DNA of 39,393 nucleotides. It comes from Betaproteobacteria bacterium (GTDB lineage Bacteria > Pseudomonadota > Gammaproteobacteria > Burkholderiales > SHXO01). A program made the position numbers and the translations under genes. The stretch spans positions 1-39,393 of the forward strand of contig SHXO01000017.1 of assembly GCA_009693245.1 (NCBI GenBank), given 5' to 3'. How positions within the stretch are numbered: position 1 is the stretch's first letter; every line of letters starts with the position of its first letter. The notes beneath the pieces were generated by a model. It did no database searches. It was given only the letters and a program-made list of their open reading frames with translations, and had not been told where the DNA came from. Below, one piece after another: positions 2,715 through 11,793 of this stretch.

Positions 2715-3251
2715 TCAAAAATCTCTCTTGCGATGGCGCACGGCGCAGAAGGCGATGATCAGGGCACTGGGTATTCCTACCCAGACTAGTTCGCTGTAAA
2801 TCGTCTCCAAACCGCGATCGGAAAAAAATCCCGCGCCGATGGGCGAGACTTTGATGGGCGTGACCGGAAAGAAATAACGTCCGTGATCGATGGGCCAGAA
2901 AAACGCCACGCCCAACCCTCCGTTGGTGAGCGCATCGAGCACACCATGGAAAGCCACGCACAGCAGCAGAAATGCGCAGAGACTCCGCCGGTAGCGCGCC
3001 CACATGGGTTCCCGGTAGAAAACCCATAGCGCGGCGAAGGCCAGCAGCGCCGCGAATACGAGGGAATGGGTAAACCCCCGGTGCCCGAACGGGTGCGAGT
3101 AAGGAATGCCCAGCGAAAAGGCGAGCACATCGAGGTCGGGAATGATGGCGCACGTCATGCCGATAAGGACAGGTTTGATGCCGAGGCCACGCGGTAATAC
3201 CGCAGTCCCGATGGCGGCGCTCGCCAAGACGTGAGAAAAAATAGTGGGCAT
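2715..3251 (-). CDS. inner-membrane metal-dependent hydrolase (YdjM/DUF457 family)
   Basis: The ATG at 3251 gives 178 residues beginning MPTIFSHVLASAAIG. The family pattern is visible: the N-terminal histidine (FSHVLASAAIG), IPDLDVLAF near residue 37, GHRGFTHSLVFA near residue 55, and HGVLDALTNGGLGVAFFWP near residue 100, whose His/Asp residues are thought to bind metal. At least four membrane helices are present. This family resembles LexA-regulated YdjM; its reaction is not known to me. An in-frame upstream extension to 3413 is low-complexity shadow sequence. The gene sits 7 bp after the M15 peptidase gene. Confidence 0.85.
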   Translation of the reverse strand: MPTIFSHVLASAAIGTAVLPRGLGIKPVLIGMTCAIIPDLDVLAFSLGIPYSHPFGHRGFTHSLVFAALLAFAALWVFYREPMWARYRRSLCAFLLLCVAFHGVLDALTNGGLGVAFFWPIDHGRYFFPVTPIKVSPIGAGFFSDRGLETIYSELVWVGIPSALIIAFCAVRHRKRDF

Positions 3252-3258
3252 GGATGCG

Positions 3259-3990
3259 CTACGCCGCGGGCTGGGGTGAAATGTGAGCGAGTACGGTGGC
3301 CGAAGGTTGCGCCACGTTCGCCACGTATTGGCGCATGAGAGCGGGCAAGGATCGCAGAACCAAATCCAGGCCCAGGAGATCCGCCGCCTGGAGGGCTTGC
3401 GCCACCACGTCACCGGTTAGAGCAGCTTGCGCGAGCGTGGAAGCCGGCGCGTAGCTGATGTGCCAGGGCTCGGGCGATATGCCGCCGCGTTCCTGGTCGT
3501 AAGGGCGAAAGAAACCGAAGCGATCCAGATTCGCGCCAAGCCATTGCGAGAGCCTGCCGAATATTCCGTCAGGCGCATACTCTTCGGGAATCAATTGCAC
3601 GCGGTAGGATTCGGGCATGGAAGCATGGTCGTACACGTCTATTTCCGTACCCCAGTGATGCCGGCTGGTGCCGGGCAGCGCTGACCAGACGAGGATCGCA
3701 TCGATCTTCTGCTCATCTGTAAGCGCCGAGGCGTCCATGACTTGCCCGTCACGGCTATAAAGCGTGCGCTCGCCGCGAAACTTGCGATTCCAGATCAGCA
3801 CCTGGGTATCGAAGTCACGAAAGCTGCTATAGGGGCGCAAGTCAATACCCTCCCGCGCGGCTTCGGCGCGCATCGCCAGGAAAGGTTGGACCACGCCGTG
3901 ATGCAAGGCGCAGCGCGGCTCATCGAGTTGCGTGATGTGCGTGCGGGCACGCCCGGTGAGTTCGAGTTCGTTCAGTGCCGCAGGACGCAT
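3259..3990 (-). CDS. D-alanyl-D-alanine carboxypeptidase, peptidase family M15 (VanY-like)
   Basis: This 243-residue protein has the M15B zinc-peptidase signature: YSSFRDFDTQVLIWNRKFRG, then SRHHWGTEIDVYD (His and Asp zinc ligands in H-x6-D), and EPWHISY (catalytic Glu, third zinc His). Family members trim the terminal D-Ala from peptidoglycan stem peptides. No convincing signal peptide is seen at the N-terminus (MRPAALNELELTG), so its location is unclear. Its start lies inside the last 19 bp of the FAD oxidoreductase gene, which implies co-transcription. The VanY-like label is by motif only; no vancomycin-resistance genes are nearby. Confidence 0.88.
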   Translation of the reverse strand: MRPAALNELELTGRARTHITQLDEPRCALHHGVVQPFLAMRAEAAREGIDLRPYSSFRDFDTQVLIWNRKFRGERTLYSRDGQVMDASALTDEQKIDAILVWSALPGTSRHHWGTEIDVYDHASMPESYRVQLIPEEYAPDGIFGRLSQWLGANLDRFGFFRPYDQERGGISPEPWHISYAPASTLAQAALTGDVVAQALQAADLLGLDLVLRSLPALMRQYVANVAQPSATVLAHISPQPAA

Positions 3991-5303
3991 TTTTCAAAAA
4001 GACCGGGAAGTAAGCGCACTGGATCGTAGCGCGATTTGAGTTGCTCGTAGGCGTGGCGGTCGTAGCTCCGCCAAAACTCCTCTTCGGTGAAGTAGATGTC
4101 CGAGTACAAGGACTTGATGCTGTCTAGACGCGCCACTTCGCCCTCGATCAAACGGTTGTGGTGCCCGTGCGCAAACGGCTCGCGCGTGCGCACCACGTCC
4201 CAGAAGCCGAAATTCACGTAGGTGACGCCCGCTTGCATGGGAAACAGCGGGTAGCGGCGGCGGGAATCGTACACCCGGACGGGGCATATCCAGACGGGCA
4301 GGATGCCGGTCTCTTTCATCAAGAAGGCGAGAAACTCCGCGCAATGTTCCAAGGGGATATCCACGTCTTGGATGACGGATTCGCGGTGCATGCCCGTCAG
4401 ACGATCCAAGCGCTGAGTCACGCGCCAGCGGCTGTTCCAGCGCATGACCTGGGTGTAGAAACGCGAATTCAAGCGCCGGCGGCCCAGCAGCCGGCGCACT
4501 AGGGGTTGCTGGGCGCCAAAATTCTTCGAGCACCAAAACCAATCCGTGTCCCAGCGCCAAAGGTAATCCTCGGTGCGCAAGTAGTCCTCTTCGCGGTTTA
4601 GCAAGGAGCGGTAGTAGATGTGCTCGAAGGTGTAATCGCTGCTGTAGGGAGCCTGCTCGCAAAAGCGGCCCCTGCACAGCACCATTTCACTGCCGCCGAA
4701 CACCACGCCATCGAGGAAATCGGTGTCTTCTTGGCATGCGGCTCCCAGGTCGCGAAAGAAATGTTCCGAATCTTGGTAGCGGCGGTATTCGGTGCGCACG
4801 AAAGCCTTCACGGGAACCGCCTTCGCGCGCACCCGCAACGCATACCCCAGGGTCCCGTAGGAGTTGGGCAGCCCAAGGAAGAGGTCGCGATGCTCGTTTT
4901 CTGGCGTACATAGCACGACCTCGGCATTGGATAGCAACACGTCCATTTCCTGAACTGTTTCATGCACCAAACCGTACTTGAAGGCCGAGGACTCGATGCC
5001 CACGCCTGCCACGGCACCGCCCAAGGTGATGGATTTGAGTTGCAGCACCACGGCCGGCATCACGCCTTGGGGGAGGCTCGCGGCCACGAGAGCATCGTAA
5101 GGGGTCATGCCTTCCGCCTCGATCCAGCCCTCCTCCTTGTTGACCCCGAGAACGTGATGAAAGTCGCGCACGTCCAAACGGTGCTTGCTCGCTGCCGCGC
5201 GGTCGCGGAAAAGATTGGGGGTTCGTTTATCGAGGCCCACGGGCCCGCGGGCCGCCACCATATCGCGCACCAATCGCTCCCGGCGTTGGGCGTGGGAGGT
5301 CAC
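3972..5303 (-). CDS. FAD-binding oxidoreductase, DWARF1/UfaA1-TmsA-like
   Basis: The start is GTG at 5303, whose GTGA overlaps the TGA of the methyltransferase gene; this gives 443 residues. Sequence further upstream is shadow of that gene. The N-terminal half has the FAD_binding_4 (PCMH) pattern: HHVLGVNKEEGWIEAEGMTPYD, LKSITLGGAVAGVGIESSAF, KYGLVHETVQEMDVLL. The C-terminal half (LYSDIYFTEEEFWRSYD) resembles DWARF1/Delta24-sterol-reductase relatives. In actinobacteria a homologous FAD protein (BfaA/TmsA) is paired with a cyclopropane-synthase-like methyltransferase (BfaB/TmsB): the methyltransferase methylates oleoyl phospholipid and the FAD enzyme reduces the 10-methylene group to 10-methyl. 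The same pair, overlapping, is seen here, so that role is inferred. Confidence 0.85.
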   Translation of the reverse strand: MTSHAQRRERLVRDMVAARGPVGLDKRTPNLFRDRAAASKHRLDVRDFHHVLGVNKEEGWIEAEGMTPYDALVAASLPQGVMPAVVLQLKSITLGGAVAGVGIESSAFKYGLVHETVQEMDVLLSNAEVVLCTPENEHRDLFLGLPNSYGTLGYALRVRAKAVPVKAFVRTEYRRYQDSEHFFRDLGAACQEDTDFLDGVVFGGSEMVLCRGRFCEQAPYSSDYTFEHIYYRSLLNREEDYLRTEDYLWRWDTDWFWCSKNFGAQQPLVRRLLGRRRLNSRFYTQVMRWNSRWRVTQRLDRLTGMHRESVIQDVDIPLEHCAEFLAFLMKETGILPVWICPVRVYDSRRRYPLFPMQAGVTYVNFGFWDVVRTREPFAHGHHNRLIEGEVARLDSIKSLYSDIYFTEEEFWRSYDRHAYEQLKSRYDPVRLLPGLFEKCVLRH

Positions 5304-6562
5304 TTCGCGGTTGCCTCTTCCGGAACGGGCGCATGGGAGGAAGCAGTATCTTCGGCGTACAAAAAGAAACGGCTCATGGGATAGGCGTTGCGCGCGACAT
5401 TGCCTTTGCTGAATACGATCTGGAACAGACCGGTGTTGCTGCGCGGAGATCTGAACATCTCCGCGCACGAGTACAAGTACGTGCGCCACACGCGGCGAAA
5501 ACGCTCATTGAACCGCCGCGTGTTGAGCGCCTGAATTCTCGGCCAGTGGCTATCGAAGCGTTCGGCCCAGGCATCGAGGGTATGGGCGTAGTGCCGCCGT
5601 AAATTCTCCACGTCCAGCACTTCCAGTCCGCAGGCCTCCATGGCCGCCAGGGTTTCGGACAAGCTGGGGATCCAGCCGCCCGGAAACACATGCTTCCGGA
5701 TGTAGAACTCCGTATCCCGAACGCCCACGTGACCGATGAAATGGAGCATTCCGAGGCCGCCGCGTTTAAGAAACCGCGCGTGCGCCTGCACCACTTCCTC
5801 CAACTGGTCGCGGCCGGCGTGTTCCAGGACGCCGATGGAAACGACTTTGTCGTACTCTTTATCCACCTCTCGAAAATCCGCTTCGCGCACGCTCAGGGAA
5901 TCGTTCATCCCGCGGCGGGAGATTTCATCGCGCAGCCAAGGTACTTGCTCGCTGGCGTTGTTCAGGCCCGTGACCCGCGCGCCGTGATGTTGGCGCGCGT
6001 GAAACATGAAGCCGCCAAAGCCGCAGCCGATATCCACCACGCTGTCCCCCGGCCGCAACCGCACCTTCTTGCACACATGCTCCCCCTTGTTGCGCTGGGC
6101 CTCTTCCAGGTTCGTGGCGCCTTCCTTCCAATAGGCGCAGGTGTACATCATGAGATCCCGGTCTAGCCATTGACCGTAGAAATCTTCTCCCAAGCAGTAG
6201 TGAAAGCGCGCATTGTTCTTGGCTTGTTTCATCCGGCGGTTCGAGTACCGCAACTCGTGCCACTGGTTGCGTATCCACACCAGGGGATTGCGCCGGCTTT
6301 CGAACCCGCTCTCGAAGGCGATGCGAAAGGGCAGCGCGAAGTCTCCGTCCACATCGAGCTGGCCGTCGAAATAGGCCTCCAGGAATCCCACATGACCTTG
6401 GGCTAGCGCACGCAATTCTCCGAGCAGGGAGTTGAATCGCAACTTCAGCGCGTGGTCTTCCGCGCGGTTACGATGGACCGAACCGTCGGCGAAAGTAGTT
6501 TCGAACGACAACGCCGTGCGCGTCCCGAGCGATGAAATAAGCGGTCTGAGCGGTGAGGCCAC
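5300..6562 (-). CDS. cyclopropane-fatty-acyl-phospholipid synthase family SAM methyltransferase
   Basis: The protein has 420 residues. An N-terminal substrate-binding region (residues 1-130; AYFDGQLDVDGDFALPF is typical) is followed by a SAM-binding Rossmann domain with motif I VVDIGCGFGGFMFHAR and the family motif SIGVLEHAGRDQLEE (SVGMFEHVG in E. coli Cfa). Other family marks are FYGQWLDRDLMMYTCAYW and FIRKHVFPGGWIPSL-like text (YIRKHVFPGGWIPSLSE). It transfers a methyl group from SAM to the double bond of membrane phospholipid acyl chains. The overlap with the FAD oxidoreductase gene suggests that a methylated or methyl-branched acyl chain is the product rather than a plain cyclopropane. 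It is 35 bp downstream of the 2OG oxygenase gene. Confidence 0.92.
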   Translation of the reverse strand: MASPLRPLISSLGTRTALSFETTFADGSVHRNRAEDHALKLRFNSLLGELRALAQGHVGFLEAYFDGQLDVDGDFALPFRIAFESGFESRRNPLVWIRNQWHELRYSNRRMKQAKNNARFHYCLGEDFYGQWLDRDLMMYTCAYWKEGATNLEEAQRNKGEHVCKKVRLRPGDSVVDIGCGFGGFMFHARQHHGARVTGLNNASEQVPWLRDEISRRGMNDSLSVREADFREVDKEYDKVVSIGVLEHAGRDQLEEVVQAHARFLKRGGLGMLHFIGHVGVRDTEFYIRKHVFPGGWIPSLSETLAAMEACGLEVLDVENLRRHYAHTLDAWAERFDSHWPRIQALNTRRFNERFRRVWRTYLYSCAEMFRSPRSNTGLFQIVFSKGNVARNAYPMSRFFLYAEDTASSHAPVPEEATAK

Positions 6563-6597
6563 GTATTCCTCCTGCGATGGACGGATGGGGACTGGCG

Positions 6598-7203
6598 CTA
6601 AGCACGTACTTTAAACCACCCCGTGAAGCTCCAGCGTTCGCGCGTGGCGGGAAGCACTTCGTGATGGATGCGGCCGCTCAGAAAAGCCACCAGCGTGCCA
6701 CCTTCTGGCAACACATCCACGCAGTCATCCTGTTCGCGGCCTGGATACATCCGCAGTTGGCCACCATCGGCTGGCTGCCACGCTTCGTTGAGATAAAGAA
6801 TGCACGATACAACATGCGCGGAGCCATCGCTGAAGCGGTCCAGGTGGCGGGCGTAATGAGCACCCGGCGCGTAGCGGGTGAGATGCGCTTCGAATTCAAA
6901 CAGCCCGAGGTAGAGCTGTTCGTTAAGCGCGAGCCGTAGAGTCTCGAACCCGGAGAACAGCGAACTCAGCGCTGGTTCGTCCGCGTCCACCCAGCAGATG
7001 GAGTCTGCGCGCACGGACGCGTTGGCTTCCCGCTTGCGCCCGATACCTCCCGCCGTGAAGGCCCCGGTTTGCCAGCGCTCGCGGGCGTAGGTTCTTAGCT
7101 GCTCCACTTGCTCTGACGGCATGGCCGACGGCACGACGCACCATCCCTGGCCATACAGGGCCGCGCTTAAGCGTTGTATCCGCGAGGGTGAAAGATCCAG
7201 CAA
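6598..7203 (-). CDS. 2-oxoglutarate/Fe(II)-dependent oxygenase, prolyl-4-hydroxylase-like
   Basis: This is a 201-residue double-stranded beta-helix oxygenase. Iron ligands are visible in HYARHLDRF (H-x-D spacing) near residue 118 and the distal His in GRIHHEVLP near residue 180; the 2OG-binding Arg is in RERWSFTGWF. SCILYLNEAWQPADGGQLRMY is the usual core strand pair of the P4Hc family. The target is unknown: protein side chains or small molecules are both possible. The only plausible start is TTG at 7203, four bases after the glgP stop; an in-frame stop at 7222 rules out a longer protein. It lies between glgP and the lipid methyltransferase on the same strand. Confidence 0.85.
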   Translation of the reverse strand: MLDLSPSRIQRLSAALYGQGWCVVPSAMPSEQVEQLRTYARERWQTGAFTAGGIGRKREANASVRADSICWVDADEPALSSLFSGFETLRLALNEQLYLGLFEFEAHLTRYAPGAHYARHLDRFSDGSAHVVSCILYLNEAWQPADGGQLRMYPGREQDDCVDVLPEGGTLVAFLSGRIHHEVLPATRERWSFTGWFKVRA

Positions 7204-7207
7204 CGGA

Positions 7208-9766
7208 TTACAACCAGCGCATCATTCCCATTTCGAAGGGATTGGCGAGCAACTCATGGTGAGGGTACACGCGCACACTGTATTCCAGCTTGCCGCACAT
7301 GCCAGGCGTGAAATCGAACCTGAAGCGGTGTTCGCCGCGATCGGTGGTTCCTTCCAGGCATGTCAGCGGGTAGCCGCTCTTGACTTGCAGGTGCGCTTCG
7401 GAGGTATCGCGTTGAACCATGACTTCCACCGTCACGTCCTCGGGCCGCAACCCATTGAGTTGCACGGCCACTTCCATGGACATGGATTCGCTGAACCAGA
7501 TGTTGCGCCGTGGCGTATCCAGGCGGCGAATTTGCACGTCTGACCAGCCCTTGCGCACCCTCGCCTTCCAGGCGGCGAGTTCCTTCGCGCCCTGAAAATC
7601 GCCGCCATGCAGGAGCGCGCCCTGCCGTGTGGCGGGGACGTAGAAGTTTTGCAGGTACTCCGTCAGCATGCGCGTGGAACTGAAACGCGGCATGAGGGTC
7701 GCCATGGAGCGCTTGGCCATGCGTACCCAGTTAGGCGAATAGCCCATGTCGTTGCGGCCGTAATAGGTGGGAATGACCTGGTCTTGCAGCAGCTCGTAAA
7801 GGGATTTCGATTCCTCCGCGTTGCGCTTGGCTTCGTCCGCGTTCTCCGCGACGGGCTTGATGGCCCATCCGTTATGGCCGTCGTAACCTTCATCCCACCA
7901 GCCATCGAGCACGCTGAGGTTCAAGGTGCCGTTGATGCCCGCCTTCATGCCGGAAGTACCGCTTGCCTCCAGGGGATAGACCGGGTTATTGAGCCACACG
8001 TCCACCCCCGAGACCAGGAAGCGGGCGAGCCGCATGTCGTAGTCTTCCACCAGAAGCATGCGGCCCTCGAACTCCGGGTGCTTGGAGATCTCCGAGATGC
8101 GGCGAATGATGTCCTGCCCTGGCCGGTCCGCGGGGTGAGCCTTGCCGGCAAAAAGGAAAAGAACGGGTTTTTCGTCGTTGCACAGGATCTGGCGTAACCA
8201 ATCCAGGTTCTCGAAGATGAGACCGGCGCGCTTGTAGGTAGCGAAGCGGCGCGCGAATCCGATGGTGAGAACCTTCGGATGGTCCATATCCGCGAACTTG
8301 AGCAAGCGGTCCAGGTGCGCCTGCGAGCCCCGGTTGCGCAGATGCTGGCTGGTGATTCGCTGGCGGACGACCTTGAGCATCTGCGCTTTCAGCGTTTGGC
8401 GCACGCTCCAAAACAACTGGTCGGGGATGGCATCGATACGCTCCCAGAATTCCGGATCGGTCAGGTGGCGGGTCCAGTCGAATCCCAGGTACTTCTCGAA
8501 CTGGTCCGCCCATTCCTGCGCCAGCCAAGTCTGCACGTGCACCCCGTTGGTGACGTAACTCATGGGGTTGTCTTTCGCATCGATCTGCGGCCAATGGCCC
8601 GCGCAGATATTTGACGACACGACGCCATGTATGCGGCTCACACCGTTGTGAAAGCGCGAGCAATTGATGGCGAGCGCGGTCATGTTGAAATCGTGCACGT
8701 TGTGGACTCGCCCCAAGTCGCGCAATTCGTCGCGCGACATGTTCATCTGCCCGCACAGTTTTTCGAAGTAATGCCACATGACGTCTTGCGCGAAATAATC
8801 GTGGCCCGCGGGCACGGGCGTGTGGGTGGTGAAAACCGAGTTCGCCGCGACGGCCTCCAGCGCGCCAGGCAGGTCCATGCCCAGGCTGGCCATTTGCCGC
8901 ATGCGCTCAAGCACCAGGAAGGCGGCGTGCCCTTCGTTCATATGCCATGCCGTGGGCTGAATGTTCAGAGCTTCCAGTGCCCGCACTCCGCCTATGCCGA
9001 GAATGATCTCCTGCTCGATGCGCATGGTCCGATCGCCCCCGTACAACTGGTGGGTAATGTGGCGGCTGTGCTCGTCGTTCTCCGGAAGATCCGTGTCGAG
9101 GAGATAAAGGTTCACATGCCCGCAGCGTGCCCGCCATACCTTGCACGATACCTGGCGCCCAGGAAAATCCACGGCGATCTTGAGTTCGGCGCCGTTGGTG
9201 GCGAGGACGGGCGTGACTGGCAAGGCCTCGAACTCGGAATAGGGATACACCGCTTTTTGCACGCCTTCCGAATCGATGGTCTGCGTGAAATAGCCTTGGC
9301 GGTAGAGCAAGCCCACGCCCACGAAGGGTAAATGCAGATCGCTTGCCGTCTTGCAGTGATCTCCCGCCAAGATACCCAAGCCGCCAGAATAAATGGGGAA
9401 ACTTTCGTGGAATCCAAACTCCGCGCAGAAGTAGGCGATGAGATCGTCGCGCCCCAGGGCTTCCGTGGTGGACTTGGGCGCGGCCTCGCCGTGATAGGCA
9501 TCGTAGGTGGAGAGCACGCGCTGGTAATTGCGCAGAAACACCGGATCCTCGGCGGCTTCGTTCAGCCGCCTCTCGTCCAGCCGCCGCAAAAAGGCCTTCG
9601 GGCTGTGGCCTATGGCATCCCACAAGCCAGGGTGAAGCCGGGCAAACATGGTTCGCGTGGGCCGGTCCCAGCTATACCAGAGGTTGTTCGCCAACTCTTC
9701 TAGCCGCGCGAGTTTGCGCGGCACACGCGGGTTGACTTCGAGATGATAAGTTTGTCGTTCCTGCAT
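7208..9766 (-). CDS. glgP: alpha-glucan (glycogen/maltodextrin) phosphorylase
   Basis: The 852 residues fit the alpha-glucan phosphorylase subfamily that has a distinctive N-terminus (RLEELANNLWYSWDRPTRTMF). It releases glucose-1-phosphate from alpha-1,4-glucans using pyridoxal phosphate. Visible marks are CAEFGFHESFPIYSGGLGIL (residues 110-130), AWHMNEGHAAFLVLER, TTHTPVPAGHD, RFATYKRAGLI, and the PLP-lysine region EASGTSGMKAGINGTLNLS near residue 620. The enzyme is cytoplasmic. It is the first gene of the minus-strand run reaching to 1470. No other glycogen gene lies in the window, so the tie to the lipid genes downstream is positional only. Confidence 0.95.
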   Translation of the reverse strand: MQERQTYHLEVNPRVPRKLARLEELANNLWYSWDRPTRTMFARLHPGLWDAIGHSPKAFLRRLDERRLNEAAEDPVFLRNYQRVLSTYDAYHGEAAPKSTTEALGRDDLIAYFCAEFGFHESFPIYSGGLGILAGDHCKTASDLHLPFVGVGLLYRQGYFTQTIDSEGVQKAVYPYSEFEALPVTPVLATNGAELKIAVDFPGRQVSCKVWRARCGHVNLYLLDTDLPENDEHSRHITHQLYGGDRTMRIEQEIILGIGGVRALEALNIQPTAWHMNEGHAAFLVLERMRQMASLGMDLPGALEAVAANSVFTTHTPVPAGHDYFAQDVMWHYFEKLCGQMNMSRDELRDLGRVHNVHDFNMTALAINCSRFHNGVSRIHGVVSSNICAGHWPQIDAKDNPMSYVTNGVHVQTWLAQEWADQFEKYLGFDWTRHLTDPEFWERIDAIPDQLFWSVRQTLKAQMLKVVRQRITSQHLRNRGSQAHLDRLLKFADMDHPKVLTIGFARRFATYKRAGLIFENLDWLRQILCNDEKPVLFLFAGKAHPADRPGQDIIRRISEISKHPEFEGRMLLVEDYDMRLARFLVSGVDVWLNNPVYPLEASGTSGMKAGINGTLNLSVLDGWWDEGYDGHNGWAIKPVAENADEAKRNAEESKSLYELLQDQVIPTYYGRNDMGYSPNWVRMAKRSMATLMPRFSSTRMLTEYLQNFYVPATRQGALLHGGDFQGAKELAAWKARVRKGWSDVQIRRLDTPRRNIWFSESMSMEVAVQLNGLRPEDVTVEVMVQRDTSEAHLQVKSGYPLTCLEGTTDRGEHRFRFDFTPGMCGKLEYSVRVYPHHELLANPFEMGMMRWL

Positions 9767-9801
9767 GGCCAGGGCCTATTCTATGGATATACCTTTCGGG
9801 G

Positions 9802-9817
9802 CATGGCATTCGCCATG
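9802..9817 (-). terminator. small hairpin between hslU and glgP
   Basis: CATGGC-ATTC-GCCATG forms a perfect 6-bp stem with a 4-base loop, just after the hslU stop. No T-run follows on the minus strand, so factor-independent termination is doubtful. Confidence 0.3.
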
Positions 9818-9824
9818 ACAGCCC

Positions 9825-11168
9825 TTACAAGACGTACCGTGCAAGGTCCTCGCTGCTCGCGAGAGCCTTGAGACGGCCATCCACATAATCGGCATCGAGT
9901 TTGACGGCTTGAGCTTGGAACTTCGAGACATCGAAGGACACTTCCTCCAGCAGCTTTTCCATCACCGTGTAAAGGCGGCGCGCTCCTATGTTCTCGGTCT
10001 TCTCGTTCACTTGCCAGGCGATTTGGGCAAGGCGTTTGATACCTCCGGATTGAAAATCGAGCTTGACCCCTTCGGTCTCCAACAGCGCCTCGTACTGGCG
10101 CGTCAAGCAGGCATCGGTGCTGGTGAGAATGCGCTCGAAATCTTCCACCGACAACGGGTTCAACTCGACGCGAATGGGAAAGCGGCCCTGTAGTTCTGGA
10201 ATGAGATCCGAGGGCTTGGATAGGTGAAAGGCGCCGCTGCCGATGAACAAGATGTGATCGGTCTTGATCATGCCGTACTTGGTGGAGACGGCGGTGCCCT
10301 CCACCAGCGGCAGCAAATCGCGCTGTACGCCTTGGCGCGACACATCGGCACCATGGCTTTCGGAGCGGCTGGTGATCTTGTCGATCTCGTCGAGAAAGAC
10401 GATGCCGTTTTGTTCCACGTTGCGCAGCGCTTGCGACTTCAAATCCTCGTCGTTGACCAGCTTGGCGGCTTCTTCGTCGGTGAGCATCTTGAGCGCATCG
10501 CGGACCTTGAGCTTGCGCGCGCGCCGCCGCTGGCCGCCGATATTCTGGAACATGGATTGAATCTGCGTGGTCAGCTCCTCCATGCCGGGAGGCGCCAGAA
10601 TCTCCATGTGCGGGCTCACGGCCGCGACTTCTATCTCGATATCGCGTTCATCCAATTCGCCCTCGCGCAGCTTCTTGCGAAACTTCTGCCGCGTGGGGTT
10701 CTCCGCGGCGGACTCATCGCGAGCCTCGGCACTTTCGAATCCGCCATCGCGCGCGGGCGTCAATAACAAGTCGAGGATGCGCTCCTCGGCCACATCCTCC
10801 GCGCGGCGGCGCACCTTCTTGGTTTCCTGCTCGCGCGCCTGCTTGATGGCGGACTCCACCAAATCGCGAATGATGGTATCCACGTCCCGGCCCACGTAGC
10901 CGACCTCGGTGAACTTGGTGGCTTCCACCTTGATGAAAGGCGCGTTGGCGAGCTTGGCCAAACGGCGCGCGATCTCGGTCTTTCCCACACCCGTGGGACC
11001 GATCATCAAGATGTTCTTCGGCGTGATCTCCTGGCGCAGTGGCTCGGGGACCTGCTGGCGGCGCCAGCGGTTGCGCAGCGCGATGGCCACCGCGCGCTTG
11101 GCAGCCGTTTGGCCAACGATGTGTTTGTCCAGTTCATGGACGATTTCCTGGGGGGTCATTTCCGACAT
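9825..11168 (-). CDS. hslU: HslU, ATPase subunit of the HslUV protease
   Basis: The ATG at 11168 gives 447 residues starting [20 protein letters not shown], the normal HslU N-terminus; upstream in-frame sequence to 11237 is repeat-derived and was rejected. Walker A is [17 protein letters not shown], followed by the pore GYVGRDVD loop; Walker B is [12 protein letters not shown], sensor sequence GRFPIRVEL. The intermediate (I) domain spans about residues 110-230. The C-terminus ends DLARYVL, the tail that docks into HslV. HslU unfolds proteins and feeds them to HslV in the cytoplasm. It lies 79 bp downstream of hslV, and the gap is filled by an inverted repeat. Confidence 0.97.
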
Positions 11169-11183
11169 GGATGTCTTTTGTAA

Positions 11184-11259
11184 AGGCGTGAGACGTGAAG
11201 CGTGAGACGTGATGCGCGGGGGTGTTTCACCCTTCACGCTTCACCTTTCACGCCTCACC
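11184..11259. repeat. imperfect inverted repeat of GTGAAGCGTGA units between hslV and hslU
   Basis: The left arm (from 11184, AGGCGTGAGACGTGAAGCGTGA) and the reverse complement of the right arm (11221-11259) share AGGCGTGA, GTGAAGCGTGA and GTGA blocks separated by 3-base differences. It would fold into a long stem in the hslVU message. The right end supplies the hslV stop codon (GGTGAGGCGTGA). Confidence 0.7.
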
Positions 11260-11793
11260 GAGTTCTTCAATGACATGCGACTGATTCGTATAGATGCAAA
11301 TATCTCCCGCTATCTCCAGCGATTTCTTGACGATGTCGGCGGCGCGCAGCGTGGTATTTTCCAGCAATGCTCGCGCGGCGCTTTGGGCGTAGGCGCCGCC
11401 GCTGCCTATGGCGACGATGCCAAGCTCGGGTTCCAGCACGTCGCCGCTGCCGGTGATGATGAGGGAATTCTCGGCGTCGGCCACGGCGAGCATGGCTTCG
11501 AGCCGGCGCAATATGCGGTCCGTGCGCCAGTCCTTGGCAAGTTCCACGGCGGAGCGCAGCAAATGGCCTTGGTGCTTCTCCAACTTTCCTTCGAAGCGTT
11601 CGAACAAGGTAAAGGCGTCCGCCGTGCCGCCAGCGAAGCCCGCGAGAATTTTTTCGTGATACAGGCGCCGCACCTTGCGGGCACTGGCCTTCAACACGAT
11701 GTTGCCCAAGGTCACTTGGCCGTCTCCGCCCAAGGCCACATTGCTACCGCGCCGGACGGACAAGATGGTGGTGCCGTGCATGATTTCGCTCAC
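11248..11793 (-). CDS. hslV: HslV, proteolytic subunit of the HslUV protease
   Basis: This 181-residue protein has an N-terminal-threonine protease core. After a short propeptide (MSEIMHG) the mature chain would begin at the catalytic threonine of [40 protein letters not shown] and [16 protein letters not shown] are family signatures. A second possible start is the internal Met five residues in. HslV forms two stacked hexameric rings in the cytoplasm that degrade unfolded substrates delivered by HslU. It follows the double-STAS-like gene by 5 bp and precedes hslU. Its last codons GGT GAG GCG TGA lie in a dispersed repeat also found at the end of two other genes here. Confidence 0.97.

Follow-up and report, generated by a model that had tools for sequence, protein, structure and literature searches.

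A candidate gene pair for mid-chain methyl-branched fatty acids in a Burkholderiales genome combines a BfaA-family protein with a separate lineage of cyclopropane synthase-type methyltransferases

We have analysed a stretch of 39,393 nucleotides (nt) from a betaproteobacterium of the order Burkholderiales (contig SHXO01000017.1 of assembly GCA_009693245.1; the whole stretch is called the window below), in which a run of genes on the minus strand includes two overlapping genes that probably make mid-chain methyl-branched membrane fatty acids. The first gene, B (5300-6562, 420 amino acids, GTG start), encodes a cyclopropane fatty acid (CFA) superfamily methyltransferase dependent on S-adenosylmethionine (SAM) and of a lineage here called beta-type (Pfam CMAS, E 1.5e-71). 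The second, A (3972-5303, 443 amino acids, GTG start), encodes a flavin adenine dinucleotide (FAD)-dependent protein of the BfaA family (FAD_binding_4, E 1.6e-9). In the proposed pathway B would methylate an unsaturated acyl chain, leaving a methylene chain, and A, drawing electrons from reduced nicotinamide adenine dinucleotide phosphate (NADPH), would turn the methylene into a methyl branch by reduction, yielding products such as 10-methyl-16:0. We infer both reactions, their substrates and positions, and their operation in the organism from properties read in the sequence, namely the protein families, the active-site residues, the recurrence of the B-A pair and the kinship of A with BfaA.

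A pair of this kind is known from actinobacteria, where BfaAB/TmsAB (Machida et al. 2017, Blitzblau et al. 2021) likewise unites the genes of a FAD_binding_4 reductase and a CFA-type methyltransferase. In that family BfaB converts an unsaturated acyl chain by methylation into a 10-methylene chain, which BfaA then reduces to 10-methyl. According to Machida et al. (PMC5660069), BfaB expressed alone in Escherichia coli gave a methylene chain, and BfaA together with BfaB gave 10-methyl stearate. Blitzblau et al. (PMC7791843) report the same with genes of other species, as well as several cloned operons without product. In the window the two genes overlap by 4 nt (GTGA, with A read from the GTG at 5303), and an overlap of this length is also described for bfaAB of M. 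chlorophenolicum and others (PMC5660069). The list of open reading frames (ORFs) contains a longer frame for A, from 5489, and homologs begin near 5303. The gene order is reversed, B preceding A in the window whereas bfaAB runs from A to B.

By full-length similarity A is a BfaA-family protein. The yardstick was a Tsukamurella record, the bench-tested Mycobacterium and Thermomonospora proteins lying outside the comparison, and A is identical to its FAD protein at 191 of 431 positions (44%) over the full length. This record contains recR, YbaB/EbfC, N-acetylmuramoyl-L-alanine amidase, pseudouridine synthase, SRPBCC, FAD oxidoreductase, methyltransferase and DNA polymerase III genes, and all but the pseudouridine synthase have counterparts listed in the legend to Figure 2 of Machida et al. 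(PMC5660069). Compared with 14 actinobacterial A proteins encoded beside CFA-like genes, a broken Prescottella locus being excluded, A showed 42-51% identity over the full length, and single values were 44% for Nocardia, 49% for an Actinomadura and 51% for a Nitrospira A protein. FAD_binding_4 was the only Pfam match (38 bits, cut-off 26.4), and the single NCBIfam match, DprE1, scored 34.1, far below its cut-off of 500.

The motif WRWDTDW was present in all 68 aligned A rows, including 11 that had been found without that pattern (the window, five plasmid records and five relatives). These rows are all BfaA-family proteins aligned along their length, with no other FAD_binding_4 oxidases among them. 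In the resulting tree the proteobacterial A proteins fell together (47 rows, marked with a support of 97, one of them from a metagenome-assembled genome (MAG) labelled Deltaproteobacteria), as did the actinobacterial ones (12 rows, 99). Window A lies within an unmarked group of 27 betaproteobacterial-type rows, on an end branch of 0.54 as compared with a median of 0.27.

The predicted fold of A (mean predicted local distance difference test score, pLDDT, 91.0) matched DprE1 best (Z 30.2, root-mean-square deviation 3.1, 364 aligned residues, 15% identity), closely followed by galactonolactone dehydrogenase (Z 29.2), and the modelled fold alone cannot separate the two. DprE1 acts on a membrane lipid. 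By sequence, the nearest solved relatives were cytokinin dehydrogenases, and sugar or aldonolactone oxidases, the other identity that the original prediction had considered for the FAD protein, matched weakly along a short stretch. That identity thus recedes when sequences are compared and stays in reach when folds are. Neither the cytokinin dehydrogenase and DprE1 sequence matches nor the galactonolactone dehydrogenase fold match was taken as the function of A.

For B the best solved match was the CFA synthase 5z9o (E 5.6e-61), and its model had a pLDDT of 91.3. Five residues of E. coli Cfa that we take to form its bicarbonate site and to bind bicarbonate (C139, E239, H266, I268 and Y317) are kept in B as C142, E247, H274, I276 and Y325. 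The site is also kept in the genes studied by Blitzblau et al., as stated in that paper (PMC7791843). E. coli Cfa and B have the CFA and SAM domains in common, too; B nevertheless lies outside the E. coli clade, at 35% identity, and cfa of strain MG1655 has no adjoining FAD oxidoreductase gene.

A tree of 82 methyltransferase rows (quick method, no bootstrap, unrooted) placed window B in a proteobacterial clade of its own, made up of 29 beta-type rows (support 96), or 30 with the row of locus L054 (99). Separate from it were the actinobacterial BfaB proteins (12 rows, 100), the E. coli Cfa clade including the Nitrospira-type partners (15 rows, 99) and a gammaproteobacterial clade (14 rows, 100). 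Forcing the beta-type and actinobacterial partners together was rejected by the approximately unbiased (AU) test (p 0.0011, log-likelihood 73.9 lower), and so was forcing all linked partners together (p 2e-5). Joining the beta-type and gammaproteobacterial clades was borderline and too close to call (AU p 0.048). After the tree had been seen, L054, whose CFA gene lies on the other strand, was removed from the beta group in all three tests, and L055, whose CFA gene falls in the gammaproteobacterial clade, in the two pairwise ones. B is 34-37% identical to BfaB and 36% identical to a second Cfa-like protein of the same genome. On these comparisons B is not orthologous to actinobacterial BfaB. 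The original prediction had seen in the pair a mirror of BfaB/BfaA and had proposed a phylogeny of both proteins as a check: A did align with BfaA-family rows, and the active-site residues of B and the recurrent pairing agree with the claim, whereas B belongs to a separate lineage and the gene order is opposite. B may mirror BfaB functionally, but not as its ortholog.

The occurrence of A was examined at several levels. Among 60 genomes (the organism's own and 59 relatives), 12 matched A at E ≤0.001, namely its own, four orthologs at 60-62% identity and seven weak matches. In a set of 399 genomes of the order, its own included, 24 matched at E ≤1e-40: its own, 22 carrying a copy of 57-63% identity (split in one case) and one whose only copy is 37% identical. 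Across the phylum, two of 398 genomes matched at E ≤1e-20, one being the window's own, and three genomes of the same genus (68%, 100% and 78% complete) gave no A match. When named genomes were scanned for the patterns WRWDTDW and NFGFWDV, at least 591 relatives of A were confirmed, of which the best 80 were analysed. Judged by title, these best 80 of at least 591 were chiefly proteobacterial MAGs, followed by Nitrospira, candidate phyla, an acidobacterium, a verrucomicrobium and actinobacteria (Prauserella, Saccharopolyspora, Amycolatopsis, Actinomadura and others). Six plasmid records also matched A, among them plasmids of Variovorax, Nocardia farcinica and Tsukamurella.

The genes paired with A were surveyed in 109 loci, the window included, the partner type being that of the best-scoring query on the same strand within 3 kilobases (kb); some organisms are counted twice (e.g. 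L031 and L174). A beta-type B lay upstream of A in 64 of the 109 loci. Within these 64 the B match was partial in six (L034, L046, L050, L076, L082, L180), the spacing between B and A was 1.2-1.5 kb in three (L078, L168, L171), and A was of the divergent 37% kind in one (L181). An actinobacterial B was found downstream of A in 14 loci, and all 14 actinobacterial loci read A then B. An E. coli Cfa-like B stood upstream of A in eight loci and downstream in two, and a B of the gammaproteobacterial clade stood upstream in one. When the 22 order genomes carrying A at 57-63% identity are taken alone, B stood upstream in 20 (one as a partial match), in one there was none, and in one the contig ended. 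Since B upstream of A recurs in so many genomes, the pair in the window is more than a chance arrangement. A is thus found beside at least four CFA lineages, the fourth (gammaproteobacterial) in one locus only; A is the steady element and its methyltransferase partner varies. Some A frames extend over 800 residues or more and were considered as A-B fusions, but B and A proved to be separate overlapping genes there.

Several observations weigh against the function proposed here. The window copy of A carries six changes (residues 29, 87, 107, 127, 395 and 436) at the 97 columns where 95% or more of the rows agree, the most of any of the 68 (next 4, median 1). Among them is P87L in the AVVPQLK loop, where all 67 other rows have P. 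B, on the other hand, is unchanged at all 110 fixed columns of its clade; if conservation is counted without the window, a single change (K165 for R) appears. This pattern would fit an incomplete pathway with a functional B, a drifting A and a methylene-branched chain as the final product. We regard such decay as improbable: A is full length with an intact frame, and other rows deviate as much or more at a conservation threshold of 90%, where two rows exceed window A and the window comes third. When the beta-type rows are taken alone, one row lies above window A at 95% and four rows at 90%.

The remaining objections concern the partner and the product. No CFA gene was found near A on its strand in 17 of the 109 loci, and the contig edge intervened in three more. 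Because B lies outside the BfaB clade and is equally near E. coli Cfa, its kinship does not show methylene rather than ring formation. The second Cfa-like protein of the genome (contig C11, 40424-41245) shares 42% identity with Tsukamurella BfaB and falls in with the actinobacterial clade (16 rows, support 99), nearer BfaB than B is. As it lies closer to BfaB than to E. coli Cfa, it cannot be assigned the ring-making role that would leave B to form branches. Finally, a literature search lacking most subscription journals gave no fatty-acid record of a proteobacterial carrier. B could accordingly be a cyclopropane synthase of a divergent clade, with A acting on another lipid, unsaturated or cyclopropane for example. 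In line with this, the methyltransferases paired with A in Nitrospira and other phyla fall within the clade of E. coli Cfa, and the Nitrospira enzyme shares 51% identity with E. coli Cfa itself. We consider a ring-making B unlikely, since the pairing of A with CFA-type genes recurs across phyla and the bench-tested pairs of the A family make first the methylene and then the methyl group.

With methylene formation by B and reduction by A as the preferred function, the survey suggests, from the gene trees, that A and the CFA lineages have changed partners, in a number of changes that an unrooted quick tree does not fix. We see about an even chance that the BfaA-type reductase is a widespread module that came together with different CFA lineages on more than one occasion, in which case mid-chain methyl-branched lipids would occur far more widely than the use of 10-methyl fatty acids as markers allows. 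The lineages would then be the beta-type one in Burkholderiales and some Gammaproteobacteria, BfaB in actinobacteria, the E. coli Cfa-like one in Nitrospira, Acidobacteria, Verrucomicrobia and some candidate-phylum MAGs, and a gammaproteobacterial one.

Some individual loci deserve mention. The genomes of 15 of the 17 partnerless A loci were searched (L025, L029, L032, L035, L037, L040, L047, L048, L053, L060-L063, L074 and L077, mostly gammaproteobacterial), and all 15 had CFA-like genes elsewhere, 13 of them including one of the gammaproteobacterial clade. Three Nitrospira or Nitrospirae MAGs (L080, L091, L072) pair A with an E. coli Cfa-like methyltransferase. A known Nitrospira fatty acid, 11-methyl-16:0, could be made by the Nitrospira pair; a literature search for it in Nitrospira turned up no paper naming it. 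A divergent FAD subfamily, 36-37% identical to window A, follows a beta-type B in L168 (6041-7369), between B and the usual A, and in L181 (5943-7260), in place of A, and is a possible second reductase. On a Prescottella plasmid (L106, 1979-7620) fragmentary bfaA-like and bfaB-like pieces lie on both strands beside duplicated flanking genes.

Two further systems can be set beside the window. TmpBA of gamma- and deltaproteobacteria resembles it in being proteobacterial, in having a CFA-type methyltransferase and, as the name and the text imply, in the order B-A (PMC7791843). The partners differ, TmpA being geranylgeranyl reductase-like and described in the same text as non-homologous to BfaA, whereas the partner in the window is a FAD_binding_4 protein; this comparison was made from the description of TmpB, not from its sequence. 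No TmpA-like gene near methyltransferases of the gammaproteobacterial clade was recognised by eye in the flanking frames of 12 loci, no family search being made. In the Rhodobacter system UfaM/UfaD/UfaO phospholipid monounsaturated chains are likewise methylated in a SAM-dependent manner, the partner enzymes are different and the end product is a furan fatty acid (PMC7380195). B might by analogy be of UfaM type, UfaM being another enzyme that methylates 18:1 chains of phospholipids with SAM, and the genes of the window might make furan or 11-methyl-12-ene fatty acids. The linked partner is, however, a BfaA-type FAD protein rather than UfaD or UfaO, and we hold this route to be very improbable. 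Neither ufaD nor ufaO was found among 13 window proteins scanned, the genome itself not being searched; Rhodobacter ufaM lies outside the ufaD/ufaO operon, according to the same paper (PMC7380195).

Pathways of this kind are known; in the literature covered by the search, which lacked most subscription journals, there was no earlier description of one in Burkholderiales, of the reversed gene order or of the separate methyltransferase lineage, and looking for bfa-like genes outside actinobacteria brought up, as far as relevant, only the bfa and tmp papers and papers mentioning them. The marker table of a sediment study (PMC4000199) assigns 10Me16:0 to Deltaproteobacteria and Actinobacteria, and 10Me17:0 and 10Me18:0 to Actinobacteria, with none of the three given for Betaproteobacteria. 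If the Burkholderiales and Nitrospira pairs work, 10-methyl markers would misassign these organisms. The change of partner also offers ready-made material for comparing CFA-type enzymes and asking why some release a methylene instead of closing a ring, and the pairs may be new enzyme sources for branched-lipid engineering.

The genes around the pair were all confirmed from ORFs and domain matches, on the minus strand and with the coordinates and gaps (-19 to 35 nt) that the original prediction had given. Upstream of B lie a glgP-type alpha-glucan phosphorylase with DUF3417 (7208-9766, TIGR02094, E 6.2e-254) and a prolyl hydroxylase-like 2-oxoglutarate (2OG)-Fe(II) oxygenase (6598-7203, PF13640, E 2.2e-22), preceded by two genes that from their Pfam domains we presume to be hslV (11248-11793) and hslU (9825-11237). 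Downstream of A follow a VanY-type D,D-carboxypeptidase-like protein (3259-3990, PF02557, E 2e-29), a YdjM-like inner-membrane protein (2715-3251, PF04307, E 2.6e-27 when scanned as the longer frame 2715-3413) and, just beyond the run as first delimited, an MxcK-like major facilitator superfamily (MFS) transporter (1470-2699, PF07690, E 1e-46; NF038077, E 7e-108, under its cut-off). With the starts chosen, the gaps are 4 nt between glgP and the oxygenase, 35 nt between the oxygenase and B, 7 nt between VanY and YdjM and 15 nt between YdjM and the MFS gene, and A overlaps VanY by 19 nt.

This tight spacing on one strand would fit a single pathway of the whole run, with glgP, the oxygenase, the pair, VanY and YdjM, to a hydroxylated, methyl-branched lipid or envelope component. 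With the 2OG oxygenase, glgP, VanY, YdjM, MFS and HslU proteins as tblastn queries, 85 other A loci (several short) gave no match to any of them and 23 order loci (five overlapping with the 85) gave none above 45 bits, and in a clustering of locus genes the window's neighbours of the pair stayed single. The hslV-hslU-glgP block (7208-11793) is common to two genomes of the same genus (G001, G002), and the third shares the part of glgP that its contig holds. In the stretches after glgP in these three genomes (8.0, 6.4 and 3.8 kb) none of the window's other genes was present.

The oxygenase itself points elsewhere. Its best solved match (4iw3/4j25, E 1.9e-46), which we take to be the Pseudomonas prolyl hydroxylase PPHD, covers residues 16-200 as a catalytic-domain match, with the H-x-D, H and R residues aligned. 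PPHD acts on EF-Tu (PMC5701443). The oxygenase was not found in the three same-genus genomes, two of them incomplete, and in two of five other A carriers searched it was present tens of kb or more from the pair. The prolyl hydroxylase match makes hydroxylation of a protein more likely for it than a role in lipid synthesis, and a hydroxylated lipid made through it is disfavoured. The wider lipid operon was rejected, as no neighbour besides B was found beside A in the other loci examined, and we find a single pathway for the whole run scarcely credible. The other genes are neighbours without evidence of a shared role.

The G+C content of the run is about that of its surroundings and so gives no compositional sign of transfer. 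Scans for promoters (3 promoter-like sites, 3.3 expected) and terminators (15, with 10.4 expected) were uninformative. At 781-1409 the window further contains a ParE-type toxin gene with a ribbon-helix-helix gene upstream, likely a toxin-antitoxin pair.

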